A DNA stretch of 64,000 nucleotides from Bradyrhizobium sp. CCGB01 (lineage in GTDB: Bacteria; Pseudomonadota; Alphaproteobacteria; Rhizobiales; Xanthobacteraceae): assembly GCF_024199795.1 (NCBI RefSeq), contig NZ_JANADK010000001.1, positions 3,844,001 to 3,908,000 on the forward strand, given 5' to 3'. Position 1 is the first letter of the stretch; every line of letters begins with the position of its first letter. The position numbers were made by a program, and so were the translations under genes. Positions 9,001 to 24,196 of the stretch are shown one piece after another. The notes beneath the pieces are model-generated. The model was given only the letters and a program-made list of their open reading frames with translations. It searched no databases and was not told the origin of the DNA.

Positions 9001-11041
9001 CGCCTCGGGCGGCGCGGTCACGCTCGACAATGTCAGCTTTGCACATGATCGGGCGGTCGGCGGCAATGGAAGCTATTTCAATGGCTATTCCGCCAGCGGC
9101 GGCGGCGGCATGGGCGGCGCTGGCAACGTCAATGGCGGCGGCGGCATCGGCCTCGCGGCGTCGGGCGGGAGCTATTTTGGCTACGTGCCCGGTCGCGGCA
9201 TCGTTATCGGCGCGGCGGCCGGTGGCGGTGCTGGAGGTACCGATGGTGGCGGCGGCGTCACTGGCACCAGTCCGTGGGGCTCCGGTCGCTACGGCTATGT
9301 CGGCGGCGCTGGTGGCGGCATCGGTGGTGGCGCGGGGTCCGCCACGTCGGGCGGCGCCGGTGGTTTTGGCGGTGGTGGTGGCGGCGGCGTCGTCAGCCCT
9401 GTGGATCTCACGGGCGGCGCCGGAGGTGCCGGCGGGTTCGGCGGTGGTGGCGGCGCTGGGCTGCGGGGTGCGGGCGGCGCCGGCGGGTTCGGTGGTGGCG
9501 GCGGTGCCGGCTATTGGGGCTACGCGAATGGCGCCGGCGGTTTCGGCGGCGGGCAAGGCAACTATCAATCGGGCGGCGGCGGACTCGGCGCCGGCGGCGC
9601 GATCTTCGTCCAGGAAGGCGGCTCGCTGACCTTCGGCGGCAGCGGTGGCACCCACGACAACAGCGTCGCCGGTGGTTCGGGCTCGAATGTCGGCCACAAT
9701 TCCGGATCGGGCCTCGGCAGCGGCATCTTCCTCCAGGGCAACCAGACCATCACCTTCGCTCCGGATGCGGGGCACATCATCACGATCAGCGACGTGATCG
9801 CCGATATGACCGGCTCGCACGATGCCAGCGGCCAGACCGGCGCGGGACATCTGGTCCTCGATGGCGACGGAACGCTGGTCCTGGCGACCGCGAACACGTT
9901 CACCGGCGGCATCACGATCGAGAACGGCACGCTCGACCTCACTGCGAGCGGCGCGGCCGGCTCCGGCGCGATCGACTTCTCGGCGGCGGATCATGCCGCG
10001 CTGGAATTCAGCGCCGCAAACGCGCCCGTCAACGCGATCGAGCATTTCGGCACGCGTGACCAGATCATCGTCGACGGCTTCCACGCCACGAGTGAAACGT
10101 TCATCAATGGCGTTCTGGTTCTGAGCGGCGCGAGCGGATCGGTCAGCCTTACGGTCAGCGGCGATGACATCGCTTCGCTGTCGGACTTCCATTTCGCCTA
10201 CGACTCCGCGGCCAACACCACGACCATCACCGCCGGGCCGGATCGATCGGGCAACGACGTGATCCATTACGGTGTCGGCGCGCAGAGCCTCACCGGCGGG
10301 ACGGGGGACGACGTGTTCTTCTTCCGCGGCAGCGACCTTGCCGCGGGCGTCACCGACAAGATCACCGACTTGTCCTGGGCAACCGGCAGCAGCGAGCACG
10401 ACCGCATCCATCTCGAAGGCGTCGATCCCAATGCGGTGTCGGTCTCGACCGTCAATGGCGGCCACGACACCGACATCGCGATTTCCGTCGCCGGCGGCAC
10501 GGCGCACATTCTGGTGCAGGGCGTCGGTTCGGGGCCGCTGCAGATCGAGTTCCAGAACACGACGCCGACGGATGATGCGCATTTGAATACGCTGCTGACG
10601 CCGTCGACGGTAAATGAGATCGTCGCAAGTTTCTATTTCGGCGCCAATCCGCCCTATGCCAAATCTCTGGTCAGTTATGGCGCTGATGGCGCGGTCATCG
10701 CTCAGGATGTCACCAACAATGACGGATCGCACCTGGTGACCGTGCAGGGGGACAACGCTGCGCTGACGGCGTCAGCGGCGAACGATACGTTCGTGTTCCA
10801 GTTCAATTCGCAGGCGGCCGCCACGGCTACCATCGGCAATTTCGACGTGGCGCATGACGTCCTGCAACTCAGCCAGTCGGCTTACGCGGACGCGGCGGCA
10901 GCGCTGGCTGCGATCACCGCCGATCCGCACAACGCCGGCAACCCGGCCGATACCATCATTGCGCTGGACGCGCTTCACTCGGTCACACTGACCGGTGTCA
11001 ATCCAAACCTGCTGCAGCAGCGGGATTTTCTGGTAGTCTAG
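2..11041 (+). CDS. Giant glycine-rich repeat surface protein/adhesin with type I secretion tail (5' partial)
   Basis: The frame is open from the first codon of the window, so the start lies upstream; about 3,680 residues are visible. Modules beginning with an F-x-V-x-T-x-A-E-L-like segment recur near nt 1338, 3178, 4360, 4635, 4918 and 8667. The long ones run into a beta-helix-like stretch (ending in NVTF-like or DVAF-like strands) and then a Gly-rich tract. Three autotransporter-type beta repeats (GxGTVxFxGANSYVGGTT) and eight Ig-like repeats of about 90 residues (nt 6494-8650) follow the same theme. Near the C-terminus is one RTX-like GGTGDDVFFF segment, and the protein ends in a hydrophobic DFLVV tail, typical of proteins exported by a type I ABC system. 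Likely role is an extracellular adhesin or matrix protein; this is inferred from architecture. No beta-barrel autotransporter domain is visible, and no transporter genes lie in the window. Confidence 0.85.
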   Translation, partial: AAVAIDAVTFTGDAAKGGAGGYWGGGSSSGQGGGGGGMGTAGSSAFASGSYSAGGGTFIYIKGAPGGTLGVNVPGHASYSQAAAGGKPSGGSSLSPGADGGFGGGGGGGASANQNTTNVRTFSVGGDGGFGGGGGAAGSYGSGAGATGGAGGFGGGGGRSTAGAGGAGGFGGGAGGSRDQFGFAGGGGGLGAGGAVFVQEGGSLTIAGSSVSGNSATGGLGSRGGGDGQALGSGIFIQGNQSITFAPSAGADAVIADTIADQGGNGGSGHVDIGGAGTVHFAGANSYVGGTTIASGSTLEVEAGGSAGTGAIIDNGTLRFEAPGTIVNAITDNGAVTLDHDGTFEFQAAVTGTGTFNFGQGHIITAVFDTGVPAVTLKGFDVGDTIDLKSVVATSFTIDANNVMTLKNVSGTAVATLHFDPAQHFDLNLALVADGNGGTNIRLAQTSFTVSTAAELNAALTAMSSGGNAYGANLNYVIHFAGNISLASLSSDLAAINLASGSKLTVDGAGFTLDGANTHRGFFEYAGTVTFKDMTIAHTLAQGGAGAIGGGGGGAGLGGGLFVAAGATATIANVTFLYNAARGGNGGGVNPAGRIYQGGGGGGGMGTDGAVGSTTGVQHFYSIGSHVGYTGWGYAGGAGGGLGLSNLPGGGGAGATSYRGSSPASGTFGGGGGGGNAYLASRKAGTTGAQGGFGGGGGAGGGFNTNTNSYGNGENAAGGNGGFGGGGGGGGLRGWFGIGGFGAGNGGVSFAYRAGGYYQSKIGNVGGGGLGAGGGIFVQEGGTLILESGSLSGGSVAGGAAGAIQAAHQLYSMPGAGQGLGSGIFLQGNQSIVLAPASGDAITIAGGIADQGGNGGSVAIEIKGPGTVEFDGANSYVGGTTIDAGAKLTLGGQGTFGSGAVVDNGDIVIAHSGTFGNTFTGSGDLGLGAQIITVTFTASVSLGGSLDLGNGDNVAIFQGGLSGIQSVNFGTGMQTLSVTGAMPSAVVHGFGVGDTIDFATINATGIGSFVNNVLTLTGPGGVPVATVHFDPAEQNIAPHGFLLVSDGTGGTELKLNEVPVYHVSSTAQLARAINEISVGGVFSATNQNYEIDIVGSFTLDGALPDINLASGDTLTIHGLGHEIDGAATYSGFVLRSGDVTIDHLTVADFVRHGGDGASPGTASKYGGGGGGLGAGGALFIGAGSSATLTDVAFTDNHVFGGNGGQGGIYAPSVPNGDQGVTTGGASSPGQPGFGYGGAGGHFSANGGGGSFGGGGGGGGGGRSPVTSFPPGGGGAGGYGAGMGGTGTSGGGGGGGGGGGGAGLGGAVFVASGGALNITDWTFSNNGATGGAGGSSPWGTSGTAGQGIGNDLFNYGGTVGLTSSAGQTLTVDQFVGGTQSTFNIQGAGAVVLAQGIGTNVLNITGAGDVTVLTRITASAINVSGSGDVLLRGAFYGSEVFTHTGSGTLTVEPIYNVSTTDQLVATIQTVNSNPVSNLSVEYVINLDGDIPLVAGLAKLTLVAGDTITVNTAGHTLDGAVNGAGGGFSFVAGVSGGNALLVGNAIPTFDVASVAELTTAFNAINVGGFFSSPNINYVINLEGDTALGSLSAGMLNFAAGDTLTINTNGHTLNGAVNGNGPAFTFATGASMGTPAFTGHPIATFTVGTMAEFNAALAAINPGGFYYGTNIDYEIDLTADLKLTGNMAALFLAAGDTLTIKGGGHTIDGSVNGTATYSGFDLESGNLVLSQLTIEGTLAHGRDGGSVAHAYAGAGGGGAGLGGGLFIGAGASATLDGVAFTGNSAIGGAGGNGGTAGGYNSYVGGGGPGSPVSGFGIGGAGGWGRQPAFYAHSRSNGLAGSFGGGGGGGASVYRVITRSPPFFGGDLYAGLGGSGGYGAGSGGGGGVRVASGGGGGGAGLGGGVFVASGGSLTIQSGSIGGNTAVGGLGGASTTAAGGNGQGIGSGLFAASQNVTLAPLLGNTLTISDTIAGGGVGIIHVAGAGNVTLSGAITGTTIDISNTGTVSLTVGDLVNDSFSLSGSAHYTLANKITGGGTISASGTSVLTITGMNLLTGGMALSGNSTIDLTSVNSIGSGIITFVPNSGATLILEAGVTLPNQINGFNPGDTIKLVGFAANATATMGAGNVLTVSDGVHSVDLHLNPGVDFSLFQFDVTAYSGGVMLTDRVPFGITGVVGQPVYGSGVELRGTAAPGTTVTIIANGGTTVLGTGIVDGNGNFDLITSPLADGFYTFQAVSQTGTSSQLSAGFAVTVLPSAPVITTQIGHPLNGDTVELKGTALPNQTIKLYLDGSSTVFATGVADANGNFDIVTPALTDGVHTIRATETDSLGLVSPLSAGFIVNVNPTAPTITALVNNPFNGGPIEVKGTGEPNHTIQIFADGGTTVIGTGTTNASGQFDIVTSAGLSNGVHTLTAVAVTSNLPSTASNGLSITVVPSAPAITTLVGQPDNDGTIEVKGTGQPNQSVTLYADGGTTPVGTGVIDATGHFDITTTVTFADGVHRLTATATDAANLVSPVSSQFTVNVIPDTPVISAVLPVSGTSQRIEVQGTGEVGETIKLFADGSTTVLASGVVDATGHFDIFANILGGAHIIRATETNAANLVSLVSSGVSVNVTPNAPAITALVGQPINGTTVTVKGTAQHVGGTITLYADGGTTAVGTGTVAANGTFSITTTVTFADAIHTFTATETDDGMASGLSPAFTVNVNPIAPTITAQIGTTVEGGALEFVGTGEVGNTVTITLGGVTIGSGIVDATGHFDITTISGLNPGVQAVSVTETNADHLTSTASGFVATVAPVAPVITSVVSVDDPGGRVEAFGTGKAGDIVTLYADGGTTAIGSGTVDQTGHFAIYSINGLALGAGAHTITATQTLVNGAGSATSAASTASNVNVATTATSFTITTAAELAADIAAIDLTGAYSHVNTHYTFNIVGDLVLSTQLAAFNLASGDTLTIHGNGHTLDAHGLPGLFVYSGTIDIDNLSVINAVARGGDSTSGGGGGAGLGGGLFIASGGAVTLDNVSFAHDRAVGGNGSYFNGYSASGGGGMGGAGNVNGGGGIGLAASGGSYFGYVPGRGIVIGAAAGGGAGGTDGGGGVTGTSPWGSGRYGYVGGAGGGIGGGAGSATSGGAGGFGGGGGGGVVSPVDLTGGAGGAGGFGGGGGAGLRGAGGAGGFGGGGGAGYWGYANGAGGFGGGQGNYQSGGGGLGAGGAIFVQEGGSLTFGGSGGTHDNSVAGGSGSNVGHNSGSGLGSGIFLQGNQTITFAPDAGHIITISDVIADMTGSHDASGQTGAGHLVLDGDGTLVLATANTFTGGITIENGTLDLTASGAAGSGAIDFSAADHAALEFSAANAPVNAIEHFGTRDQIIVDGFHATSETFINGVLVLSGASGSVSLTVSGDDIASLSDFHFAYDSAANTTTITAGPDRSGNDVIHYGVGAQSLTGGTGDDVFFFRGSDLAAGVTDKITDLSWATGSSEHDRIHLEGVDPNAVSVSTVNGGHDTDIAISVAGGTAHILVQGVGSGPLQIEFQNTTPTDDAHLNTLLTPSTVNEIVASFYFGANPPYAKSLVSYGADGAVIAQDVTNNDGSHLVTVQGDNAALTASAANDTFVFQFNSQAAATATIGNFDVAHDVLQLSQSAYADAAAALAAITADPHNAGNPADTIIALDALHSVTLTGVNPNLLQQRDFLVV
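50..595 (+). repeat. Gly-rich tract 1 of the giant protein
   Basis: Dense GGxGG and GGFGGGGG coding repeats, low complexity at both DNA and protein level. The tract ends in a G-L-G-A-G-G-A-V-F-V-Q-E-G-G segment that recurs after the later tracts. Confidence 0.8.
824..915 (+). repeat. Autotransporter-type beta repeat 1
   Basis: Encodes a GAGTVHFAGANSYVGGTTI-like segment, the pattern of the autotransporter-associated beta strand (PATR) repeat. Confidence 0.65.
1630..2335 (+). repeat. Gly-rich tract 2 of the giant protein
   Basis: Long run of GGGGGG-type segments interrupted by Tyr, Asn and Ser. It is closed by the same GLGAGGGIFVQEGG block that closes tract 1. Confidence 0.8.
2591..2677 (+). 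repeat. Autotransporter-type beta repeat 2
   Basis: Encodes GPGTVEFDGANSYVGGTTI, nearly the same as the copy at 824. Confidence 0.65.
3433..3915 (+). repeat. Gly-rich tract 3 of the giant protein
   Basis: Repeated GGGGGGLGAGG-like and GGGGGGGG segments inside the third module. Confidence 0.75.
5215..5705 (+). repeat. Gly-rich tract 4 of the giant protein
   Basis: GGGGAGLGGGLF-type opening and closing blocks flank a Gly/Ser/Tyr-rich centre, as in tracts 2 and 5. Confidence 0.75.
6494..8650 (+). repeat. Eight tandem Ig-like repeats
   Basis: Eight copies of a unit of about 90 residues. Each reads roughly P-x-I-T-x-x-x-G-x-P, (I/V)E(V/L)KGTG, a Y/F-A-D-G-G-T-T strand, G-x-F-D-I-T and a V-N-V end. 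This is the pattern of bacterial Ig-like domains in large adhesins. The unit spacing is nearly constant and copies have diverged by substitution rather than by length. Confidence 0.8.
8941..9600 (+). repeat. Gly-rich tract 5 of the giant protein
   Basis: GGAGGFGGGGG-type repeats. The tract is again closed by a GLGAGGAIFVQEGGSL block. Confidence 0.8.
9863..9952 (+). repeat. Autotransporter-type beta repeat 3
   Basis: Encodes GDGTLVLATANTFTGGITI, the most diverged of the three PATR-like copies. Confidence 0.6.
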
Positions 11042-12328: not shown

Positions 12329-13804
12329 ATGCTTCCGTCGTCAATGCCCGCCGATGCGCGCCAGGCCGCGCAAGGCCCTCAAAAGTGGTCCATGTTCTTT
12401 AACGCGCTCGTTTCGCCCAACGTACGGCTACTCGCGGGCGGACTGCTGATTCCAAACCTGATCTCGCTCGCAACGATGGCTTCATTGGTCGATATCGGCT
12501 TCCCGCCGCGGTCCATCGCCATCGCTCTCTATGCCAGCATTGCCATCCTGGCGCGGCGCATTCCCTTCATGATCACGGCCGCGCTGTTTCTTGCCGCGCT
12601 CACGTTCGACGTTGTGCAAACGTTGTCTCTGATGTTTGGCCTCGGGCTAGGTGACTTGATGGCAGCTGTCGACCACGCGAGGCGCATCAATTTCTTCGCC
12701 TCTCCGCTCTATTTTGCTTTGATCGCCATACTCGTCATGACCACGAGCGCGACCCTGGCATGCTTGAGGCCGCGCGCCGTGCTCATGAAGGCGAACATAC
12801 CGGTTCTCTTCTTCGTGGCGCAGGCGTTCGGTGTCCTCGACTATGTCAGCAACGCATCGCCACACTACCATTTCGGCTCCACGATGGGGAGCAGTGAGCC
12901 GGTGCAATCCGCTGCGGAAGTGTCGGGTTTTAGGGCGGCGGCGGGCGCTGACGGAAAAAACGTTGTCCTGGTGATCGTCGAGAGCCTGGGCTACCTGCTG
13001 GATCAGAACGCCCGAGCGCGCATAGCGGAACCACTGTATGACCAAAGCCTGACGAGGGATTACACGGTCACGTCCGGAAAAACGGTCTATTTCGGTTCGA
13101 CGACCTCGGGCGAGATGCGGGAACTATGCAATACGCGCACATTCTACACGGAGTACGTTCAGAACGACACCAACACCTGCCTGCCTGATCTGCTGGCCGC
13201 GCGAGGGTATAGCAACATCGCCATGCACGGCTTCGCTGGAGGCATGTTCGAGCGTGAGCGGTGGTATCCGACAATCGGCTTCGACCAGGAATTTTTCCGC
13301 GACGAGTTGGTCAAAACGACCCACCGCGTATGCGGTAGCGCCTTCGCCGGCGCGTGCGATGCAGATCTTGCGCCCGTGATTTCTGCAGCCTCCCGCGACG
13401 CGGGAAAGCAAGGCAAGCCACGCTTCATCTATTGGCTCACTCTGAATACACATATTCCGGTCGCGCCCAGCCAAGCCCTGACGGATTTTCATTGCGGGAT
13501 CGACGGTGGCGTCTTTGGGCGACCCAAGGTTTGCCGGATGGCCGAACTTTGGCACGACGTATTTGCCGTCGTCGCGAAGATAGCGCGCGACCCAGCCGTG
13601 GCGCCGGCCGACATCCTGGTCGTCGGCGATCATGCGCCGCCGTTCTGGTCGAGGCATGACCGCGCCCAGTTCGAACCCGGTCAAGTGGCTTGGTACAGGC
13701 TCCAGCCCCGGCGAGCGCCTCCTATGCCGATGCCGGACGCTCTCAACCAACAGAGAGCATCGGTAAATGACGCGGCAAGTCTGAACCTCGTCAATTCGCG
13801 ATGA
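12329..13804 (+). CDS. Membrane-anchored sulfatase-fold transferase (LtaS/phosphoethanolamine-transferase-like)
   Basis: About 491 residues. The first 190 or so contain about five hydrophobic segments, and the rest is a periplasmic alkaline-phosphatase-superfamily domain. Visible metal/nucleophile motifs are a VIVESLG strand (metal Glu), GSTTSGEMREL (candidate Thr nucleophile) and VVGDHAPPF (Asp-His pair), the arrangement known from LtaS and phosphoethanolamine transferases. It probably moves a phospho-alcohol group onto an envelope glycan or lipid; donor and acceptor are unknown. The start is uncertain: TTG at 12293, ATG at 12329 and ATG at 12344 share the frame and none has a strong ribosome-binding site. 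Confidence 0.7.
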   Translation: MLPSSMPADARQAAQGPQKWSMFFNALVSPNVRLLAGGLLIPNLISLATMASLVDIGFPPRSIAIALYASIAILARRIPFMITAALFLAALTFDVVQTLSLMFGLGLGDLMAAVDHARRINFFASPLYFALIAILVMTTSATLACLRPRAVLMKANIPVLFFVAQAFGVLDYVSNASPHYHFGSTMGSSEPVQSAAEVSGFRAAAGADGKNVVLVIVESLGYLLDQNARARIAEPLYDQSLTRDYTVTSGKTVYFGSTTSGEMRELCNTRTFYTEYVQNDTNTCLPDLLAARGYSNIAMHGFAGGMFERERWYPTIGFDQEFFRDELVKTTHRVCGSAFAGACDADLAPVISAASRDAGKQGKPRFIYWLTLNTHIPVAPSQALTDFHCGIDGGVFGRPKVCRMAELWHDVFAVVAKIARDPAVAPADILVVGDHAPPFWSRHDRAQFEPGQVAWYRLQPRRAPPMPMPDALNQQRASVNDAASLNLVNSR

Positions 13805-13951
13805 GTGCTGCAGCCGCGGAAATCATCTAGCGGCGCGAATGTTCAAGAACGCTGCGGTGACCAAGAGAAATCTTGCCAGCATTTCGTGCAACGCAGGCCG
13901 TGTGGCGGTAATCCGAGCGTTCCGTTGGAAGGCGGTGAACCGGCAGGTGGT

Positions 13952-14539
13952 CTAACCGGTTGCGCGTGGGAGAATGCCCTTTGCCGTAATCTCCGCCGAA
14001 AGCTCTTCAATCGTCTTGCGTTGTTCCATGGCGGATCTGCGGATCAGTGCAAAGGCGGCTGGTTCCGCGAGCGCGTGCGAGTGCATCACCTGGAGAACGG
14101 CGGCAAGCACGACGCGACGCGACCGAAGACGCTGCTCGAGCTTGAGCACCTGCTGCTTCAATTCGTTGGTGCGTTCGTTGCGTTCGAACGCCATGACGAG
14201 CGCCGCGTAGATGCCGGCCGAGCGCAACGGCTTGACCAGGAATGAGGCCGGATCGAGTTCGAACACCAGCTTCAGGCGGCTCGGCGTCTCGGTGCCGAGC
14301 AGGGCGATGACCGGGCAGCGCCCCAGGAACGCACGTCGAGCCGGTTGTGTCAAAGGCAGGAACTCGTCATCGATCAACGCCAGATCCGGCGCGAAGTCGA
14401 TCGCCCCTGTGGGGTCCCATGCGACGCTGTCGATCCCGAGACGCTCAAACTGGCGCCGGACGATCGAGGCATCGCGTTCGTCCTTGATGGCGACGAGGGC
14501 CTTGCGTCCGCGTAGCGAAAATGAAGACGGTTTGCTCAT
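13952..14539 (-). CDS. amiR: AmiR-like ANTAR-domain antitermination regulator
   Basis: 195 residues: a receiver-like N-terminal half (to about residue 125), a coiled-coil linker (ERNERTNELKQQVLKLEQRL), and a C-terminal three-helix ANTAR RNA-binding domain (about 140-190; AAFALIRRSAMEQRKTIEEL). AmiR proteins bind nascent leader RNA and prevent intrinsic termination; their activity is blocked by AmiC until an amide is bound. Its start overlaps the amiC stop by 4 bp (ATGA), so the pair is translationally coupled as in Pseudomonas. The divergent amidase operon with a leader terminator at 15979-16018 is the obvious target. The receiver half looks like a pseudo-receiver, as in AmiR. Confidence 0.85.
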   Translation of the reverse strand: MSKPSSFSLRGRKALVAIKDERDASIVRRQFERLGIDSVAWDPTGAIDFAPDLALIDDEFLPLTQPARRAFLGRCPVIALLGTETPSRLKLVFELDPASFLVKPLRSAGIYAALVMAFERNERTNELKQQVLKLEQRLRSRRVVLAAVLQVMHSHALAEPAAFALIRRSAMEQRKTIEELSAEITAKGILPRATG

Positions 14540-15711
14540 TTCACAACCCGCAAATGTGGCGCATTCGGCAGCGCACTACCCTTCGACGTGTCCCGCGAAG
14601 GACTTACGGCAACGTCGAGCTGGGTCAGATAAGGATCAGGCTTAACAGGCGCGTCAGCTTCCCAGAAGATATCAAACTGTCCTTGCGGATTGGACACGGC
14701 CAACCGCGGTGTAAGGACGCAATGGTTGTTGCCGCCGTCGATCCAGACTGGTCCTTGCGGCGAATTGTAGCGATGGCCGGCCGCAGCGCGTCGCACTTCC
14801 ACGATATCAGATGTGCCTGCGCGCTGCAGCGCGCGCGCCAGCAGATAAACCGCGACATAGGCGGATTGTCCGTCGACGGAGGGGCTGCTGTCCTCGCCAT
14901 AGCGCGCCTTCCAGCGTTCGACGAACGCGCGGTTCTCAGGCAGGCGGATGCTTTCGAAATAGGCGGACGACGTGATGCACCCGGCCGATGCCGGTCCGAC
15001 GATTGACAGTTCCGGCTCGCACAGGCTGCAGCTCAGCATCGGAATCTCGAGCCCGGCGGCCTTGGTGCCGGCGTGGAAGGCACGGATGAAGTCGTAGCTC
15101 GAGCTTCCGACCAACGTGTTGAACACGATGGGCGGCTTCCTCCGTACGATCTCGTCGACGATATGCCCGACGGCGCTTTCGCCGAGCTCGAGCAACCGTT
15201 CGGCGAGGATGTGGCCATCCGCCGCGCTGACCAATTCCCGGGTGACGCGATTGGTTTCCCATGTCCACACGTAGTTGGAGCCGACGCAGAAGATTTCGCG
15301 TGACAGATTGTCGAGCACGTAACGGACGAGCGGCAGGACGTTGTGATTGGGCGAGGCGCCGACATAGATGACGTTGTCGGAACACTCGAAGCCCTCATAG
15401 CGCGCAGGATACCAGAGCAGGCGATCGGTGCGCTCCACGATCGGCAAGACCTGCTTGCGCGACGCCGACGTGTAGCAGCCGATGATATGCTTGACGCCGA
15501 CGTTGCGAATGAGGTCGTCGCAGACCGTATGGTATTCCGAGATGATGCCGCGGGGATCGCGAATATGGGCTGCGATCGAGAAGTCGAACTCCGCCTGGCT
15601 GTTGATCTCGTCGACCGCCATCATCGCGCTCTTGAGGATTTCGCGGCCCATGGCCTGATAGGGCCCGGACTGCGAGCAGATGATGCCAACGGGAACAGAC
15701 GGTTTTGTCAT
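14536..15711 (-). CDS. amiC: AmiC-like amide-sensing periplasmic-binding-fold protein
   Basis: 391 residues of the type 1 periplasmic-binding fold (Leu/amide family; starts PVGIICSQSGPYQAMGREIL). There is no signal peptide, which separates it from transporter binding proteins and fits AmiC, a cytoplasmic ligand sensor that sequesters AmiR. An in-frame TTG at 15732 would add seven residues. I prefer the ATG at 15711, which has a GAAAG-type ribosome-binding site. It is followed by amiR with a 4-bp overlap and divergent from the amide operon, whose own ABC binding protein (18572) does carry a signal peptide. Confidence 0.85.
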   Translation of the reverse strand: MTKPSVPVGIICSQSGPYQAMGREILKSAMMAVDEINSQAEFDFSIAAHIRDPRGIISEYHTVCDDLIRNVGVKHIIGCYTSASRKQVLPIVERTDRLLWYPARYEGFECSDNVIYVGASPNHNVLPLVRYVLDNLSREIFCVGSNYVWTWETNRVTRELVSAADGHILAERLLELGESAVGHIVDEIVRRKPPIVFNTLVGSSSYDFIRAFHAGTKAAGLEIPMLSCSLCEPELSIVGPASAGCITSSAYFESIRLPENRAFVERWKARYGEDSSPSVDGQSAYVAVYLLARALQRAGTSDIVEVRRAAAGHRYNSPQGPVWIDGGNNHCVLTPRLAVSNPQGQFDIFWEADAPVKPDPYLTQLDVAVSPSRDTSKGSALPNAPHLRVVK

Positions 15712-15822
15712 TGACGGCTTTCGGTCGCGCAACGCGAAGATGAAATCATCATCGCCGATGACAGCGCAAGTGGCTTGCCGTTTTGCTGCGCAGCACTCTC
15801 GAAATTTAGGCAGACAGCATCG

Positions 15823-15851
15823 TTGACAATGCGACGGACAGTTACTTAGAC
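15823..15851 (+). promoter_or_regulatory. Candidate promoter of the amide operon
   Basis: A perfect TTGACA at 15823-15828 is followed after 17 bp by TTAGAC at 15846-15851, a weak -10. It would start a leader of about 260 nt that reads through a small hairpin (ACAGG/CCTGT, 15861-15874) and the terminator at 15979-16018. The weak -10 limits confidence. Confidence 0.35.
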
Positions 15852-15978
15852 TTTCCTCCTACAGGGCCTCCTGTCGAACCTCGCGTGCGCCGATCTGGCC
15901 GATGACGTCCAGCTCTTTGTACTAAGTGCTTCGTTCGATGTCGGACCCTAAGCGATAGTTCATAGCCGCGGCATTTGA

Positions 15979-16018
15979 GCCATTCGTCACCTCATTCGGG
16001 AGGGACGGGTGGCTTTTT
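15979..16018 (+). terminator. Leader intrinsic terminator, probable AmiR antitermination target
   Basis: A 10-bp stem (15979-15988 with 16004-16013, including two G-U pairs) is extended by CTC/GAG (15991-15993 with 16000-16002), has a six-base ATTCGG loop, and is followed by TTTTT at 16014-16018. It lies about 100 bp before the amidase ATG at 16121 inside the transcribed leader, not at an operon end. A short competing hairpin with a six-base loop (GGC-ATTTGA-GCC, 15970-15981) shares the terminator's 5' arm. Its loop has A at position 1 but not the G at position 4 described for ANTAR targets. Confidence 0.65.
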
Positions 16019-16120
16019 GCGTTTGCCGCCAGGGAAGCTGGCAATGCGACCGCGTCGCCAGAACGTTGACGCATGCGCGGGGACGACCGCGTGTCACGTC
16101 GAGTGGGAGGATGAAGAACA

Positions 16121-17521
16121 ATGGCAGCAGCAGATTTCCACTATCTGGGACTCGTCGAGGTCGGGCGGAAGATCCAGGCGAAGCAGCTGTCGCCGGTCGA
16201 AGCGACCAAAGCGATGCTCGGGCGGATCGAGAAGCTCGACGGCAAGCTCAAGAGTTTTGCGCATGTGATGGCTGACTCGGCGCTCGCTGATGCCGCCACG
16301 GCCGAGAAGGAGATCGCTTCCGGCAAGATCAGGGGGCTGCTTCACGGTGTGCCGGTGGCGGTCAAGGATCTCTGCTGGGCCAAGGGCGCGCCGGCGGCCC
16401 ATGGTATGACCATTCATCGCGATTTCCGTCCCACCGAGGACGCAACGGTCGTTGCGCGGCTGAAGGATGCCGGTGCAATCATCCTCGGCAAGCTGCAGCA
16501 GACCGAGGGCGCCTACGCAGACCACCATCCGAAGATCGATCCGCCCAAGAACCCGTGGAACGCGGATCTCTGGCCCGGCGCGTCGTCGAGCGGTTCCGGC
16601 GTCGCGACCGCGGCGGGCCTCTGCTTCGGTTCGCTCGGCACCGATACCGGCGGATCAATCCGCTTTCCGTCCGCGGCCAACGGCGTCACCGGGCTCAAGC
16701 CGACCTGGGGACGTGTCAGTCGCTACGGCGCGTTCGAGCTTGCGGCGACGCTGGATCACATCGGCCCGATGGCGCGGAGCGCGGTCGATTGCGGCGCCAT
16801 CCTCGGCGTCATCGCGGGACAGGATCCCAGGGACACGACGTCGGTGCCGCTGGCCGTCCCCGACTATCTCGCGGGTCTATCCGGCGACCTGCGTGGCGTG
16901 ACAATCGGCGTCGACCGGCGCTGGACCAGCGAAGGCACTGACGGTGACGCGGCCAAGGTGCTGACCGAGGGACTGCGTGTGGCGGCCGATCTTGGCGCGA
17001 AGATCAAGGAGATCACGTTCCCCGACACCAAGGCGGTTGTCGACGACTGGTTCCCGCTTTGCGGCATCGAGGTCGCCGTTGCGCACGAGGACACCTATCC
17101 GGCGCGCAAGGACGAGTACGGCCCTGCGCTCGCGGGCTTGCTCGATCTCGGGCGGCAGCAGTCCGGTATGGACTACCAGAAGATCGTGCTGCGGCGCGAG
17201 GCGTTCCGCGGCGCAGTGCGTGTGCTGTTCGAGACCGTCGATCTCATCGCGGTCCCGGCCCAGGCGTTCGCCGCGCCCACGCTTGCCAAGATGGCGGCAC
17301 TTGGTGAGGACGCCTCGCTGATTGGCGGATTGCTCCGCTTCACGTGCCCGTTCGACATGACGGGAAGCCCGACCGTAACGCTTCCCGGCGGCTTCGCGGC
17401 GAATGGCGGTCCGGTCGGCTTCCAGTTCGTCGGGCGTCATTTCGACGAGGCCGGCCTGGTTCGCGCGGGCGATGCGTTCCAGCGCGTCACCGACTGGCAC
17501 AAACGTCATCCCGGGATCTGA
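16121..17521 (+). CDS. Amidase, amidase-signature (AS) family, first copy
   Basis: 466 residues, full length for the family. The Ser-cisSer-Lys catalytic triad is visible: Lys82 (VAVKDLC), cis-Ser155 (GASSSGSG) and nucleophile Ser179 (TDTGGSIRFP), with the 24-residue Ser-Ser spacing of AS enzymes. It hydrolyses an amide to acid and ammonia; the substrate is unknown. The start is ATG 16121 with GGAGG at 16106-16110; an ATG directly after that site is out of frame. It is the first gene of the AmiR-controlled operon, and a paralogue at 24197 keeps the three catalytic residues at identical positions. Confidence 0.9.
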   Translation: MAAADFHYLGLVEVGRKIQAKQLSPVEATKAMLGRIEKLDGKLKSFAHVMADSALADAATAEKEIASGKIRGLLHGVPVAVKDLCWAKGAPAAHGMTIHRDFRPTEDATVVARLKDAGAIILGKLQQTEGAYADHHPKIDPPKNPWNADLWPGASSSGSGVATAAGLCFGSLGTDTGGSIRFPSAANGVTGLKPTWGRVSRYGAFELAATLDHIGPMARSAVDCGAILGVIAGQDPRDTTSVPLAVPDYLAGLSGDLRGVTIGVDRRWTSEGTDGDAAKVLTEGLRVAADLGAKIKEITFPDTKAVVDDWFPLCGIEVAVAHEDTYPARKDEYGPALAGLLDLGRQQSGMDYQKIVLRREAFRGAVRVLFETVDLIAVPAQAFAAPTLAKMAALGEDASLIGGLLRFTCPFDMTGSPTVTLPGGFAANGGPVGFQFVGRHFDEAGLVRAGDAFQRVTDWHKRHPGI

Positions 17522-17538
17522 GTTGAGGAGACATTCGT

Positions 17539-18537
17539 ATGTCTGCAGAAGACTGGTTGAAGAACTCCATCATGGCCAAGCGCGCAGTCGCAAAGGGTGC
17601 GACGGGCGCGACGCATAGTCTGACCATCGAGCAACAGGGCGGCTTCCACTACGTCTACGGTCCCTATGCCAAGCCGACCCTGTCGATCGACCCGGGCGGG
17701 GTGGTCGTCGTCGAGACGGAAGACGCCTTCGGCGGTGTGCTCACCAAGGAGAGCGACAGCCCCACGGCCAAGCTGAACTTCCCCTATCTCAACCCGCAAT
17801 GCGGACCGATCGCCGTCAAGGGCGCCAAGAAGGGCGATTGCCTTGCGATCTATATCCGCGATGTCGAGACGCGGGGTGAACAGCCGGCCGGAACGACCTG
17901 CATCATTCCGGAGTTCGGCGGGCTGGTTGGAACAAGCTCGACCGCGCTGCTCAATCCGCCGCTGCCCGAGCGCGTGAAGAAGCTGCATGTCGACAGGAAC
18001 GGCGTGCGCTGGAACGACAAGATCACGCTGCCCTACGAGCCGTTCATCGGCACCATCGGCGTCTCGCCGGAGATCGAGGCGATCTCGTCACTGCAGCCGG
18101 ACTATCACGGCGGCAACATGGATCTGCCCGACGTCGCTCCCGGCGCGATCATCTATTTCCCGGTGCACACCGACGGCGGGATGCTCTACGTCGGCGACTG
18201 CCATGCGACGCAAGGCGACGGCGAGCTATCCGGCGTGGCGATGGAGCAGCGCGCGACCGTCACGCTGCAGGTCGACCTGATCAAGAACTGGAGCTTCGCA
18301 TGGCCGCGGCTCGAGACGAAGGACTTCATCATGACGATCGGCAGCGCGCGTCCGCTCGAGGACGCGGCGCGCATCGCCTATCGCGAGCTCGTGCGGTGGA
18401 TGGCGGCCGATTACGGCTTCGACGAGATCGACGCCTACATGCTGCTCAGCCAGGCCGGCCGCATGCGGCTCGGAAACATGGTCGACCCCAAATACACGAT
18501 GGGGGCATCGATCCTGAAGAATTACCTCAAGCCATGA
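17539..18537 (+). CDS. Acetamidase/formamidase family protein
   Basis: 332 residues of the FmdA/AmdA family, which hydrolyses formamide or acetamide to ammonia and the acid and is unrelated to AS amidases. Recognisable blocks are PTLSIDPGGVVVVET near the N-terminus, the EFGG and IPYEPF/GTIGVSPE regions in the middle and GDCHATQGDGELSGVAME near residue 215. It follows the first amidase by 17 bp and precedes the importer genes. With two AS amidases it gives the operon three amide hydrolases of two families. Formamide, acetamide or another short amide is a reasonable substrate guess. Confidence 0.88.
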   Translation: MSAEDWLKNSIMAKRAVAKGATGATHSLTIEQQGGFHYVYGPYAKPTLSIDPGGVVVVETEDAFGGVLTKESDSPTAKLNFPYLNPQCGPIAVKGAKKGDCLAIYIRDVETRGEQPAGTTCIIPEFGGLVGTSSTALLNPPLPERVKKLHVDRNGVRWNDKITLPYEPFIGTIGVSPEIEAISSLQPDYHGGNMDLPDVAPGAIIYFPVHTDGGMLYVGDCHATQGDGELSGVAMEQRATVTLQVDLIKNWSFAWPRLETKDFIMTIGSARPLEDAARIAYRELVRWMAADYGFDEIDAYMLLSQAGRMRLGNMVDPKYTMGASILKNYLKP

Positions 18538-18571
18538 CATCCAGCCGCTTTCAGAAACAGGGGATATCACG

Positions 18572-19813
18572 ATGAATTCGGGACGTAAGTTCGGTATCGT
18601 CTTGCTCGGCGCCATGCTCGGTACAGCGGCGGCGATGAGTGCTGCTCGGGCAGCGGAACCACCGTTGAAGGTGGGTCTGCTCGAGGACGTGTCAGGCGAC
18701 CTCGCCTTCATGGGCATGCCGAAGCTGCACGGCTCTCAGCTCGCTGTCGAGGAGATCAACAAGAGCGGCGGCATTCTCGGGCGACAGATCGAGCTGATCC
18801 ATCTCGATCCGCAGGGCGACAACGCGCGCTATCAGGAATTCGGCCGCCGCCTGCTCAATCGCGACAAGGTCGACGTGCTTATCGGCGGCATCACCTCGGC
18901 CTCACGCGAGGCGCTGCGTCCGATCGTAGATCGCACCTCGACGCCGTACTTCTACACCAACCAGTACGAAGGCGGCGTCTGCGACGCCAGCATGATCAGC
19001 ATGGGCGCGGTGCCCGAGCAGCAGTTCTCGACGCTGATTCCGTGGATGGTCGAAAAGTTCGGCAAGAAAGTCTACGTCATCGCCGCCGACTACAATTTCG
19101 GTCAGATCTCGGCCGAGTGGAACCGCAAGATCATGAAAGATCTCGGCGGCGAGGTCGTGGGCGAGGAGTTCATTCCGCTCGGCGTGTCGCAGTTTGCGCA
19201 GACCATCCAGAACATCCAGAAGGCAAAGCCGGACTGGTTGCTCACGATCAATGTCGGTGCGGCCCAGGACTCGTTCTTCGAGCAGGCGGCGGCAGCCAAC
19301 CTCAATCTGCCGATGGGGTCTTCGATCAAGGTCATGCTCGGCTTCGAGCACAAGCGGTTCAAGCCGCCGGCGCTCAACAACATGCACGCGACCGCCAACT
19401 GGTTCGAGGAGATCGACACACCTGAGGCCACCGAGTTCAAGAAGCGCTGGCACGCGAAATTCCCCGACGAACTCTACATCAACGACATGGGGTATAACGC
19501 CTACAACGCGCTCTACATGTACAAGGCGCTGGTCGAGAAGGCGAAGTCGATCAAGCTCGACGACATGCGGAAAGTGATCGCGACCGGAGATGCCTGCATC
19601 GATGCTCCCGAAGGGAAGGTCTGCATCGATCCGAAGAGCCAGCACACCTCGCATCGCATGCGCCTGATCTCGGTCGGTCCGAAGCACGAGGTGAAGGTCG
19701 AGAAAGACTACGGGGTGATCCAGCCCTACTGGCTTGGCGAGATCGGTTGTGATCTCACCAAGAAGAACGACAAGGATCAGTACACGCCAAGCCATCTCCC
19801 GAAGAAGTCGTGA
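18572..19813 (+). CDS. ABC transporter substrate-binding protein, amide/urea/branched-chain type
   Basis: 413 residues with a clear signal peptide ending near ARA at residue 26, then the type 1 periplasmic-binding fold (LKVGLLEDVSGDLAFMG). It delivers substrate in the periplasm to the LivH/LivM-type permeases encoded just downstream. It resembles AmiC in fold, but the signal peptide marks it as the transport component. Given the operon, the ligand is probably a short amide or urea-like compound. The ATG has a GGGGATA-type upstream sequence and is 34 bp from the acetamidase stop. Confidence 0.88.
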   Translation: MNSGRKFGIVLLGAMLGTAAAMSAARAAEPPLKVGLLEDVSGDLAFMGMPKLHGSQLAVEEINKSGGILGRQIELIHLDPQGDNARYQEFGRRLLNRDKVDVLIGGITSASREALRPIVDRTSTPYFYTNQYEGGVCDASMISMGAVPEQQFSTLIPWMVEKFGKKVYVIAADYNFGQISAEWNRKIMKDLGGEVVGEEFIPLGVSQFAQTIQNIQKAKPDWLLTINVGAAQDSFFEQAAAANLNLPMGSSIKVMLGFEHKRFKPPALNNMHATANWFEEIDTPEATEFKKRWHAKFPDELYINDMGYNAYNALYMYKALVEKAKSIKLDDMRKVIATGDACIDAPEGKVCIDPKSQHTSHRMRLISVGPKHEVKVEKDYGVIQPYWLGEIGCDLTKKNDKDQYTPSHLPKKS

Positions 19814-19911
19814 CGTCGGGCGGGCACGGATCTTGCTCGTGTTGAGTGTCTCGACTTCGAACAAAACCGGTGCCGCAACGATGCGGCGCCGGGATCGGCA
19901 AGGGGATCAAG

Positions 19912-20778
19912 ATGTCGGCTGAAGTGTTCTCGGTATTCTATCAGTTCGCCGACGTGTTTGCGTTCCTCATTCTTTCGGCCGCGGGCCTCGCCATCGTGTT
20001 CGGCATGATGGGCGTCATCAACATGGCGCATGGCGAGTTCATCATGTGTGGCGCCTATGTGACGGTCGGCTTGGTGAATTTGGGCGTGCCGCTCGCAATC
20101 GCCCAGATACTCGCCGCGTTGACGGCGGGGCTCATCGGTGTCCTCGTCGAATTCCTGGTCGTGCGTCGCTTCTACAAGCGGCCTCTGGATTCCCTGCTCG
20201 CGACCTGGGGCCTCAGCCTCATCGTGACGCAATCGATGCTCCTGATCGTCGGGTCTGCCGTACGAGGAATCGGCACGCCCGAGGGAAGCTTCGCAATCGG
20301 CGGCTATACGTTTTCGACCTATCGTCTGGTGCTGTTCGGTTGCGCGGTGGCCGTGCTGGCCGGTCTCTACATCATCTTCATGAAGACGCGTTTCGGCGTG
20401 ATCGCCCGTGCGACAATGCAGAACGCCGCGATGGCGAAGGCGCTGGGCGCACGCACCGGCCGCATCTATGCGATCAGCTTCGGGATCGGCACCGGCCTCG
20501 CCGGGCTTTGCGGGGCGCTGTACGCGCCGACCATGACGCTGATCCCGACCATGGGCGCCACCTTCGTGGTCGAAAGCTTCGTCACGGTCGTGATCGGAGG
20601 GGCGAACGTGCTGCTCGGAACGGCGCCGGCCGCTGTGTTCCTGGCGATGATCCGGATGGCGTTGAATGCGAGCTACGGCCAGATCATCGGACAGATCGGA
20701 ATGCTGGTCGCCGTCATCCTGATCATTCGGGTGTTGCCCGAGGGGCTGTCCAGCGTGCTGGTTCGTCGTGGGCGCTAA
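19912..20778 (+). CDS. Branched-chain-type ABC permease, LivH-like
   Basis: 288 residues, highly hydrophobic, with the LivH-type segments GLAIVFGMMGVINMAHGEF near the N-terminus and GLSLIVTQSMLLI in the middle. It forms the inner-membrane channel with the LivM-like protein that follows. The start is ATG 19912, preceded by an AAGGGGATCAAG site; an in-frame upstream start at 19846 would add 22 non-hydrophobic residues and is less likely. It is separated by 98 bp from the binding-protein gene, with no terminator seen in the gap. Confidence 0.87.
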   Translation: MSAEVFSVFYQFADVFAFLILSAAGLAIVFGMMGVINMAHGEFIMCGAYVTVGLVNLGVPLAIAQILAALTAGLIGVLVEFLVVRRFYKRPLDSLLATWGLSLIVTQSMLLIVGSAVRGIGTPEGSFAIGGYTFSTYRLVLFGCAVAVLAGLYIIFMKTRFGVIARATMQNAAMAKALGARTGRIYAISFGIGTGLAGLCGALYAPTMTLIPTMGATFVVESFVTVVIGGANVLLGTAPAAVFLAMIRMALNASYGQIIGQIGMLVAVILIIRVLPEGLSSVLVRRGR

Positions 20779-20784
20779 AGGGGA

Positions 20785-21864
20785 ATGTTGATGTTCAAGC
20801 TGCTGGAAGGCCCACAGACGCTCGGACGCGGCAAGTTGTTCTGGTCGTGCTTCGTCGCCGTGCTGGCAGGCGCGCTGGCCTATCCGCTGTTCGCCGATTC
20901 CTACGACGTCGGCAATTTCGCCTACTTCCTGATCTGGATCTTCATGGCGCTCGGCCTCTGCCTGATGTGGGGCTATGGCGGCATGCTGTCGTTCGGTCAG
21001 ACCTTGTTCTTCGGCATCGCCGGTTACGGTTACGGCGTGCTCGCGATCAACATGGGCGGCGGCACCGCCACGATCGCGGCGCTTGTACTCTCTGTGTTTA
21101 TCGCGATGGTCGCGGCTGGCATCCTCGGCTACTTCATGATCTGGGGCGGCATCAACGGTATCTTCTTCGGCATCGTGACACTGTCCGCAACGCTGGTGCT
21201 GGCCTTCTTTCTGGGCCAGACCGCGGGGCCTGAATGGCACATCGGCCCGGCCCGGCTGAACGGGTTCAACGGCATGAAGGGCATGGACCCGTTGACGGTC
21301 GGCGACTTCTATATCGAGGGCTCGGCGCTCTATTACGTCATGGTCGCGCTGATCGTGATCGTCTATCTCGCGCTGCGCATGCTGGTGAATTCGGGGATCG
21401 GCAACGTCATCGTAGCGACGCGGGAAAACCCGCAGCGCGCCGAGATGCTGGGTTACGACGTCAGGAAATACCAACTGCTTACCTTCGTGATCGGAAGTGG
21501 TCTCGCGGGTCTCAGCGGCGCCCTGTACACGTCGTGGGGCCAGTTTATCACCCCGTCCAGCATTGGCTTGCCGGCCGCTGCAATGCCGATCGTGTGGGTG
21601 GCCTTCTCCGGACGCAGCGATTTGACTGCGACGCTGATCGGGTCGTTCCTGCTGCTGTTCGGCTTCCAGACCATCACGGTCTACAGCCAACAGGCCGCAC
21701 TGGTGCTGATGGGGGCGCTGCTCCTCGCCACGGTGATGCTCGCGCCGCAAGGCTTTGTGCTCGGCATCGGCAAGCTCGTTGCGGACTGGTGGAGCGGCCG
21801 CCGGCGGCGCGATGACGGTGCCGTCATGGCGGAGGCTGGCCGCTTGCAGTCGGAAGAGTCCTGA
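20785..21864 (+). CDS. Branched-chain-type ABC permease, LivM-like
   Basis: 359 residues with about nine hydrophobic segments and the LivM hallmark LMWGYGGMLSFGQTLFFGIAG near residue 70. The C-terminus is an Arg-rich cytoplasmic tail. Starts at 20785 and 20791 are both in frame (ATG TTG ATG), with AAAGGGG just upstream. It is six bases from the LivH-like gene and 2 bp before the ATPase gene, so the importer genes are tightly coupled. Confidence 0.87.
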   Translation: MLMFKLLEGPQTLGRGKLFWSCFVAVLAGALAYPLFADSYDVGNFAYFLIWIFMALGLCLMWGYGGMLSFGQTLFFGIAGYGYGVLAINMGGGTATIAALVLSVFIAMVAAGILGYFMIWGGINGIFFGIVTLSATLVLAFFLGQTAGPEWHIGPARLNGFNGMKGMDPLTVGDFYIEGSALYYVMVALIVIVYLALRMLVNSGIGNVIVATRENPQRAEMLGYDVRKYQLLTFVIGSGLAGLSGALYTSWGQFITPSSIGLPAAAMPIVWVAFSGRSDLTATLIGSFLLLFGFQTITVYSQQAALVLMGALLLATVMLAPQGFVLGIGKLVADWWSGRRRRDDGAVMAEAGRLQSEES

Positions 21865-21866
21865 TC

Positions 21867-22586
21867 ATGACGCTGGTCGAAGTCAAAGGCGTATCCAAGC
21901 GGTTTGGCGGATTGACTGCCGTCTCCGATGTCGACCTTGCGGTCAACGCGGGCGAGGTCCACTGCCTGATCGGTCCCAACGGCGCCGGCAAGAGCACACT
22001 GTTCAAGCTGATCGTGGGTCTTTATCCGCCGACCCAGGGCAGCATCCTGTTCGACACCGTCGACATCACGGCCGAGCGTCCATACGCGCGCGTGCAGCGG
22101 GGCATGAGCATCAAGATGCAGGCTCCGAGCGTGTTCAAGGAGCTGCCGGTCCGGCAGAACATCCAGATTGCGCTCCAGGAGCGACTGTCCGGCGCGGAAC
22201 GCATCGCCGAAGAGGATCGCCTGCTGACACTGCTCAACCTCGGCCCGGACAGCGAGAAGCTCGCGGGTGCGCTGTCGCATGGCCAGCAGCAATGGCTCGA
22301 GATCGGGATGGCGCTGGCGCTGAAGCCTCAGCTCCTGCTGCTGGACGAGCCGACCGCCGGGATGTCACCGGAGGAAACCTTCAAGACCGGCGAGCTGATC
22401 AAGTCGTTCAATGCCGAAGGCATGACGGTGCTTGTCGTCGAGCACGATATGGCCTTTGTGCGCCAGGTCGCCCAACGCGTCACGGTACTGCATCTCGGCA
22501 AGATATTTGCGCGCGGCAATCTCGAAAGCATCTTGCAGGACGAAAAGGTCGCGGAAATTTACCTCGGTAAGGCCCATGCTCACTAA
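21867..22586 (+). CDS. Branched-chain-type ABC ATPase, LivG-like
   Basis: 239 residues. Walker A is GPNGAGKST (about residues 36-44), the signature is LSHGQQQWLEIGMAL, Walker B is LLLLDEPTAGM, and the switch His lies in VVEHDMAFV. It powers the amide-type importer. The end overlaps the start of the second ATPase gene by 11 bp. The signature LSHGQ replaces the usual LSGGQ, as is common in urea/amide-type importers (UrtD-like). Confidence 0.88.
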   Translation: MTLVEVKGVSKRFGGLTAVSDVDLAVNAGEVHCLIGPNGAGKSTLFKLIVGLYPPTQGSILFDTVDITAERPYARVQRGMSIKMQAPSVFKELPVRQNIQIALQERLSGAERIAEEDRLLTLLNLGPDSEKLAGALSHGQQQWLEIGMALALKPQLLLLDEPTAGMSPEETFKTGELIKSFNAEGMTVLVVEHDMAFVRQVAQRVTVLHLGKIFARGNLESILQDEKVAEIYLGKAHAH

Positions 22587-23301
22587 GCCCACGCCCACTG
22601 ACCGGATTCTTCGCGTCTCGGACTTATGGGCGGGATACGGCGCGACGCCTATCCTGCAGGGGGTCACCATGTCGGTCTCGCGCGGCGAGATCGTCGGCGT
22701 GATCGGCCGTAACGGTGTCGGCAAGTCGACCCTGATGCGGTGCCTGATCGGACTGCTGCAGACATGGCGCGGCACGATCAGCTTCATGGAGCAGGACGTC
22801 ACAAAGCTCGAAGCCGACGCGCGGGCGAGGGCGGGTTTTGGCTACATTCCACAGGGACGCGACGTCTTTCCGCAGATGACGGTCGAGGAAAACCTGCAGG
22901 TCGGCGAGTTGATCGGCGGTCCCGGCGGCAAGAAGCTGCCGGAGCTCGTCTATGAGTATTTTCCGCGGCTGAAGGAACGTCGGCGGCAGGCCGCGGGCAC
23001 CATGTCGGGCGGCGAGCAGCAGCAGCTCGCCATAGGCCGCGCGCTGATCGGCAATCCGTCCTTGATGATCCTGGACGAGCCGTCCGAGGGCATCCAGCCC
23101 TCGATCGTCCAGCACATCTGCGAGGCGCTGAGGTCGTTCCGGAACGAGCTTGGGACCACGATCATCTTCGTCGAGCAGAATCTCGACACGATCCTGGCGA
23201 TCGCCGAGCGATGTTACATCATGGAGAAGGGCAGGATCACGCAGTCACTGGCGGGAGGCGAGGTCAACGAGGACAATGTCCGCGAGCAGCTCCTGCTCTG
23301 A
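22576..23301 (+). CDS. Branched-chain-type ABC ATPase, LivF-like
   Basis: 241 residues. Walker A is GRNGVGKST, the signature is MSGGEQQQLAIGRAL, Walker B is MILDEPSEGIQPS, and the switch region is FVEQNLDTI. It is the second nucleotide-binding subunit of the importer. The ATG at 22576 overlaps the LivG-like gene, implying translational coupling. The EGIQPS motif after Walker B is the form seen in urea/amide-type (UrtE-like) ATPases. Confidence 0.88.
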   Translation: MLTKPTPTDRILRVSDLWAGYGATPILQGVTMSVSRGEIVGVIGRNGVGKSTLMRCLIGLLQTWRGTISFMEQDVTKLEADARARAGFGYIPQGRDVFPQMTVEENLQVGELIGGPGGKKLPELVYEYFPRLKERRRQAAGTMSGGEQQQLAIGRALIGNPSLMILDEPSEGIQPSIVQHICEALRSFRNELGTTIIFVEQNLDTILAIAERCYIMEKGRITQSLAGGEVNEDNVREQLLL

Positions 23302-23348
23302 ACGGCCGCATGGCATGTCTCTATGTCGTCAACAGGGAGGGAATGGAC

Positions 23349-24110: not shown

Positions 24111-24196
24111 GCGCTTCTCGAGCAGCGCAGTCACGAGACCGGGCCGTCAGGGGTGCCGGTGTGCGAAGCCGTTTCCGACAACAACGGGGCTGTCAG

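Follow-up and report, generated by a model that had tools for sequence, protein, structure and literature searches.

The amide locus and its leader

The window (the whole 64-kb stretch of DNA analysed here) carries an amiC-amiR pair on the minus strand and a nine-gene operon on the plus strand, with a leader between them that holds the following features.

13952-14539, minus strand: amiR-like gene, with Pfam PF21332 (AmiR_N pseudo-receiver) and PF03861 (ANTAR) above cut-off
14536-15711, minus strand: amiC-like gene, probable amide sensor, with Pfam PF13433 (Peripla_BP_5) at 5.3e-111
15823-15852, plus strand: promoter-like site TTGACA-18-TAGACT, predicted by motif scan
15885-15922, plus strand: P1 hairpin, from covariation and RNAalifold
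15923-15969, plus strand: P1-P2 linker, 47 nt, from the hairpin coordinates
15970-15981, plus strand: P2 hairpin GGC-AUUUGA-GCC, proposed antiterminator, from invariance, position and loop
15977-16018, plus strand: intrinsic terminator (stem 15977-16015, T-run 16014-16018), from fold energy and conservation
16121-25600, plus strand: nine-gene operon, from frames and Pfam; probably a single transcript, judging by strand and spacing
16121-17521, plus strand: amidase, first operon gene
17539-18537, plus strand: FmdA
18572-19813, plus strand: substrate-binding protein
19912-20778, plus strand: permease 1
20785-21864, plus strand: permease 2
21867-22586, plus strand: ATPase 1
about 22579-23301, plus strand: ATPase 2, a conserved frame only, outside the domain scan
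23346-24110, plus strand: SDR
24194-25600, plus strand: amidase, last operon gene

By Pfam and PDB matches the two regulatory genes form an AmiC-AmiR pair, in which a protein with AmiR_N and ANTAR domains adjoins an AmiC-type binding protein, and amiC overlaps the start of amiR by four bases. The amiR product matches AmiR (PDB 1qo0_D, E 7.3e-08), with the Rv1626-like 1s8n scoring slightly higher, and the amiC product matches Pseudomonas aeruginosa AmiC (1pea, E 1.8e-61), with a different binding protein, 8tg1, scoring higher. The positions of EutV Tyr164, Arg168, Met172 and Arg175 are kept in AmiR as F163, R167, M171 and R174 when the numbering is matched by spacing. The window's genome encodes two ANTAR proteins, AmiR and one other, which we take to be NasT. 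The first-pass annotation, made from the letters alone, had placed an ANTAR protein and an AmiC-like sensor beside the leader and a divergent nine-gene target operon with an ABC importer after it; the Pfam matches confirm both regulators as well as the enzyme and transporter domains, and nine genes do share the plus strand. Just upstream of the amide cluster, positions 23-11041 of the window (plus strand) hold a 3672-codon open frame that is glycine-rich and repetitive.

The terminator stem has 16 pairs (15977-15988 and 15990-15993 with 16000-16015), with A15989 bulged and a hexaloop at 15994-15999. Its folding energy is -25.9 kcal/mol, where shuffles give -10.91 +/- 2.47 (z -6.07; as low in 0 of 200 shuffles). 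It had been annotated at 15979-16018 with 13 pairs, about 100 bp before the amidase ATG; the hexaloop, the T-run and the position in the leader stand, the T-run ends 102 nt before the ATG, and the pair count is corrected to 14 when counted from 15979. Pairing is kept in 98.2% of terminator cells across the 36 leaders of an alignment that we call A2. That the terminator sits in a leader follows from the upstream gene, amiC, being on the other strand. A simple terminator scan of 13500-17500 is uninformative by itself, since it gives 4 sites with 3.2 expected, and it lists only a 7-pair core of the leader terminator. A permissive Rfam search of 15700-16140 returned four matches far below the family cut-offs, which we took as chance.

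Promoter-like sites in 13500-17500 number two, with 0.8 expected, and only the one at 15823-15852 is on the plus strand; its TTGACA is invariant in 28 of 28 rows of the group A alignment. A transcription start downstream of 16018, which the first-pass annotation had named as the case against its own proposal, finds no support in this interval, as the only predicted plus-strand site lies upstream of the terminator.

Distribution of the leader and its regulator

The AmiR query matched 143 of 146 genomes of the genus at E<=1e-3, mostly by weak matches. At 50% identity or more it matched 39 of the 146, of which 31 are nearly full-length at 77% or more, 6 stand at 51-53% and 2 are fragments; 37 of these 39 loci were compared, leaving out the window's own and that of G049. 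The leader aligns throughout the 28 rows of group A, an alignment in which L042 and L056 were skipped, L043 was excluded and L063-L068 were set apart. Group B has the same leader plan, even though in five of its six loci the first amidase shares only 32-33% identity. The pattern behind A2 missed L042, L056, L069 and L100, and the leaders of L056 (G012) and L100 (G513) were later found by model and are absent from A2. Homologous loci preserve both the leader and its terminator, and the lack of conservation that could have spoken against the annotation does not appear.

A covariance model of A2 matched 38 of the 146 genus genomes strongly (E up to 4.1e-18), once in each, and four more weakly, at 21-26 bits. 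AmiR at 50% identity or more and the leader occur together in 37 of 146 genomes, AmiR by itself in two and the leader by itself in one. Of the two genomes with AmiR only, G130 has a broken amiC close to the end of a contig; in G141 amiR itself is broken, and neither amiC nor a leader above noise was found. The genome with the leader only, G065 (L150:5615-7244, minus strand), keeps leader and first amidase without amiC or this amiR; its P2 loop, AUGUAA, has no G at position 4 or 5, and it retains other, weaker ANTAR matches. Across 397 genomes of the order, strong leader matches came solely from the window and from two members of its genus, under stricter filters that may lose weak ones.

A collection of named genomes holds 53 loci with an AmiR relative (45 in Bradyrhizobium, 5 in Rhodopseudomonas and 3 in others), and the leader was found in 48 of them, always on the strand opposite amiR. 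All five Rhodopseudomonas leaders were matched, none of which had been used to build the model. The five named loci without a leader match are L204, L216, L254 and L256 (both partial matches) and L255 (a 33% relative); that of L204 would fall outside the compared stretch, since its amiC lies in two pieces about 1.4 kb apart. This split amiC, at L204:280-1707 in Bradyrhizobium barranii subsp. apii, perhaps marks a mobile-element insertion. In several group A and group B genomes a second, weak ANTAR match lies some 12-13 kb away from amiR, on the other strand (for example G070:C2, G010:C1, G077:C14, G025:C1 and G045:C268), and the window's genome has none nearby.

The genome's other ANTAR protein, presumably NasT, might instead read the leader, a proposal to which we give hardly any credence. 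Such a second protein is present in the window's genome, and a NasT from Bradyrhizobium has leaders of this type as targets (PMC6759348), but the leader keeps company with this AmiR in the 37 genomes above, while ANTAR-like matches of some kind are found in 143 of 146.

Two hairpins before the terminator

P1, absent from the first-pass annotation, was added by comparison. It comprises an outer helix (15885-15889 with 15918-15922) and an inner helix (15892-15900 with 15907-15915) with a C15899/U15908 mismatch and the loop GAUGAC at 15901-15906. In A2, both bases of a pair have changed in 28 cells of the inner helix, where shuffles give 6.7 +/- 2.1 and sliding the helix gives no more than 15; the covariation score of this helix is 0.353, against 0.176 in shuffles and at most 0.156 when slid. 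The outer helix has 20 such cells, against 6.1 +/- 2.0 and at most 8. Three inner pairs occur as three or four standard pair types. Two of five inner-helix measures are not above the shuffles, which leave relatedness among the leaders in place: the number of double-change pairs, 5 (as high in 101 of 500), and that of pair types, 10 (318 of 500). For 48 leaders aligned to the model and taken from named genomes that partly coincide with those of A2, the structure comes to 32, with 10.8 +/- 2.5 in shuffles, and the pair count is again not beyond the shuffles. RNAalifold, unguided, draws most of P1 and pairs G1 with C6 into a tetraloop, so that the loop is a hexaloop only if these two bases are unpaired. 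Among 61 distinct leaders, which come from related and hence non-independent genomes, the loop reads GAYGAC, with G4 in 61 and G1 in 60.

Some other control, for example by a leader peptide or as a ligand-binding RNA, would also be compatible with a structured, conserved leader that has a terminator, and most leaders do have an ATG inside the P1 loop. We nonetheless think such control very improbable: that ATG reads ACG in 7 of 61 leaders (GACGAC), linker gaps of 1 and 2 bases disrupt any reading frame, Rfam has no family at gathering score in the 64-kb window, and the leader co-occurs with AmiR.

P2 has three GGC/GCC pairs around a six-base loop; all three are unchanged throughout the 36 aligned leaders, hence their zero covariation. 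The terminator's 5' arm takes in the 3' arm of P2 (15979-15981), an overlap found in dual-hairpin ANTAR RNAs, and the leader has both hairpins described for such RNAs (PMC3369931), P1 by covariation and P2 by invariance. The first-pass annotation had pointed to this hairpin as a possible ANTAR-type alternative that shares the terminator's arm and lacks G4 in its loop; it appears to correspond in place to the P2 of ANTAR leaders, and the oddity of the loop is conserved in the clade. A P2-like hairpin alone is weak evidence. In 165 unrelated terminators drawn from the window and L102-L139, any hexaloop hairpin of at least three pairs occurs at the foot of 46, and GGC-N6-GCC is rarer, at 7; two of these seven are in the AmiR locus L106, one before nitrile hydratase genes.

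By the published rule, each of the two loops of an ANTAR RNA has A1 and G4 (PMC3369931), and the EutV structure shows G4 stacked on Tyr164 (PMC8934654). Neither loop of the window follows the rule, P1 having G1-G4 and P2 having A1 with U4 and G5. In the 55 distinct leaders of group A and Rhodopseudomonas the P2 loop is AUNNGN, with A1 in 55, U2 in 55 and G5 in 54, while position 4 is U in 41, A in 7, C in 5 and G in 2, so position 5, rather than 4, carries the constrained guanine. In group B and L062 the P2 loop does have G4. The linker is likewise long, at 42-49 nt in 36 leaders, against printed ranges of 5-12 nt for eut (PMC3369931) and 2-25 nt for an actinobacterial ANTAR set (PMC8164766), and EutV is reported to be stopped in vitro by 20 extra linker nucleotides (PMC8934654). 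Long linkers of 31-64 nt also occur at 13 loci of A1-G4 relatives. Within the linker, GUUC (15933-15936) and AUAG (15962-15965) are invariant in 36 of 36 leaders, and a hairpin drawn by RNAalifold at 15930-15945 was rejected, its covariation score being matched by 159 of 500 shuffles.

Folding of the nascent RNA gives P2 a probability of 0.79 with the transcript to 15982 and 0.63 to 15985, about 0.02-0.04 at 15990-16005 and 0.77 at 16010, after which it is lost at full length; P1 stays at or above 0.78, and enforcing P2 at full length costs 5.3 kcal/mol. AmiR would have to hold P2 in the face of this loss.

AmiR might also antiterminate through P1 alone, with P2 no functional hairpin and G5 kept for the G15977-U16015 pairing at the terminator foot. 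The zero covariation of P2's three invariant pairs would allow this, as would the pairing by RNAalifold of the G5 column (column 97) with the U-tract (G-U in 29 leaders, A-U in 7), and EutV is described as binding single hexaloops (PMC8934654). However, the GGC arm lies outside the terminator and is still invariant in 36 of 36, A occupies loop position 1 in 27 of 28 other leaders without G4, and the terminator needs no G at position 5, which is A in group B. We regard action through P1 alone as unlikely, if less so than the two alternatives above.

A probable attenuator and its place among ANTAR RNAs

The terminator, its conservation, the covariation of P1, the overlap of P2 and the co-occurrence with AmiR make it highly probable that the leader is a transcription attenuator controlled by AmiC-AmiR; the start site, AmiR binding, the amide signal and readthrough at this leader are steps that we infer. 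Polymerase would start near 15859 and P1 would form. Without amide, AmiC would hold AmiR, the terminator would fold and transcription would stop near 16018. With amide on AmiC, AmiR would be freed, as is established for P. aeruginosa (PMC3369931), and would bind P1 and then P2, which would take three bases of the terminator stem and allow readthrough into the nine genes for amide uptake and hydrolysis. No terminator-like site was found before amiC-amiR, and since that pair is also divergent, the regulator is apparently not itself under the control of this switch. Against the attenuator reading stand the broken A1-G4 rule, a linker above the printed ranges, a P2 of three pairs and the leader without AmiR in G065.

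In the wider order, AmiR relatives were found in 99 of 397 genomes at E 1e-12. Among 78 distant loci, 49 have an amiC-strand terminator upstream of amiC with GGC-N6-GCC or GAGC-N6-GCTC at its foot, to be set against 7 of 165 unrelated terminators with GGC-N6-GCC, and in 29 neither type of P2 was found on the amiC strand; L102 and L135, whose P2 was located separately, lie outside the 49 and served for the tree and the residue tables only. NasT has T at the place of AmiR Met171, as do several of the 29. The 49 leaders have A1 in 45, G4 in 21, G5 without G4 in 17 and neither in 11, and the choice of hairpin did not favour A1 in the 28 leaders without G4. A binomial figure of 0.0007 for this set assumes a G frequency of 0.3 and independence, and we give it no weight. 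With a strict [AG]NNGNN scan, 14 of the 49 leaders show an A1-G4 P1: 13 of these hairpins have four or more pairs and lie 31-64 nt away, and that of L200 lies at 10 nt. In the second G5 clade the strict scan finds no convincing A1-G4 P1; by eye, hairpins with larger loops stand directly before P2, and some leaders there also have AUAG-like bases before P2.

Mapped on the AmiR tree, the G5 label requires 7 changes, of which at least 6 fall on starred branches, and the window's G5 rows fall inside G4 rows, apart from the other G5 clade. The best reading of these sequences is that G5 loops had two origins, in separate AmiR clades, with long branches that warn of false joins. AmiR residue 172 is R in 24 of the 30 rows with a G4 loop and in 4 of the remaining 35; a link with the type of P2 loop was set aside, as the tree offers only 2 independent pairs.

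Nitrile hydratase genes (Pfam) lie behind terminator leaders of their own in two AmiR loci, L137:3446-4999 (minus) and L106:2476-3924 (plus), with A1-G4 P2 loops (AUAGUC and AUCGAA), and the L137 leader is divergent from amiC; nitrile use may thus come under the same regulator. L172, L177, L178 and L186 each have a second, divergent leader.

ANTAR RNAs have so far been sought as A1-G4 hexaloops with a short linker. The tested departures here are a GAYGAC loop with G1 in P1, an AUNNGN loop with G5 in P2 and a linker of 42-49 nt. We tentatively raise the possibility, to which we give somewhat less than even weight, of a distinct class of ANTAR RNA in which AmiR reads a shifted-register P2 (A1-G5, with position 4 free), in two clades and here with a G1-G4 P1 about 47 nt away. 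If so, the A1-G4 and short-linker rules would not be general and motif searches built on them would miss the class; should loops with G5 and linkers of 40-60 nt prove functional, switches of this kind have been overlooked, and the choice of loop guanine by ANTAR domains would be less fixed than the EutV structure suggests. The open-licence papers listed for this leader concern ANTAR, AmiR and Bradyrhizobium NasT; none of those listed treats G5 loops or an AmiR leader from either Bradyrhizobium or Rhodopseudomonas, and the supplementary tables of PMC3369931 could hold an entry. The clade offers a ready comparison, with related AmiR proteins beside G4 loops (group B and L062) and G5 loops (group A).

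Set beside known systems, the leader very likely works like an AmiC-AmiR ANTAR attenuator, and it is not a strict member of the A1-G4, short-linker family, as it has neither defining feature. It shares with P. aeruginosa amiE an AmiC-like sensor, an AmiR with pseudo-receiver and ANTAR domains and a leader terminator before an amidase gene; in contrast to amiE, the target is divergent from amiC-amiR and is a nine-gene operon with an ABC importer, and neither loop is A1-G4, as both P1 and P2 of amiE are described to be (PMC3369931). The RNAs of Enterococcus EutV and Klebsiella NasR likewise have P1 and a P2 that overlaps the terminator's 5' arm (PMC3369931, PMC8934654), whereas here P1 is G1-G4, P2 is A1-G5 and the linker is 47 nt rather than the 5-12 of eut (PMC3369931). 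Also similar in plan are the Rhizobiales loci L104, L113, L138 and L139, leaders of amiC-amiR-importer-FmdA operons, which share the order of P1 and P2, a GGC-N6-GCC P2 at the terminator foot, the long linker and a homologous importer and FmdA, but whose loops are both A1-G4 and whose leader precedes amiC-amiR on the same strand.
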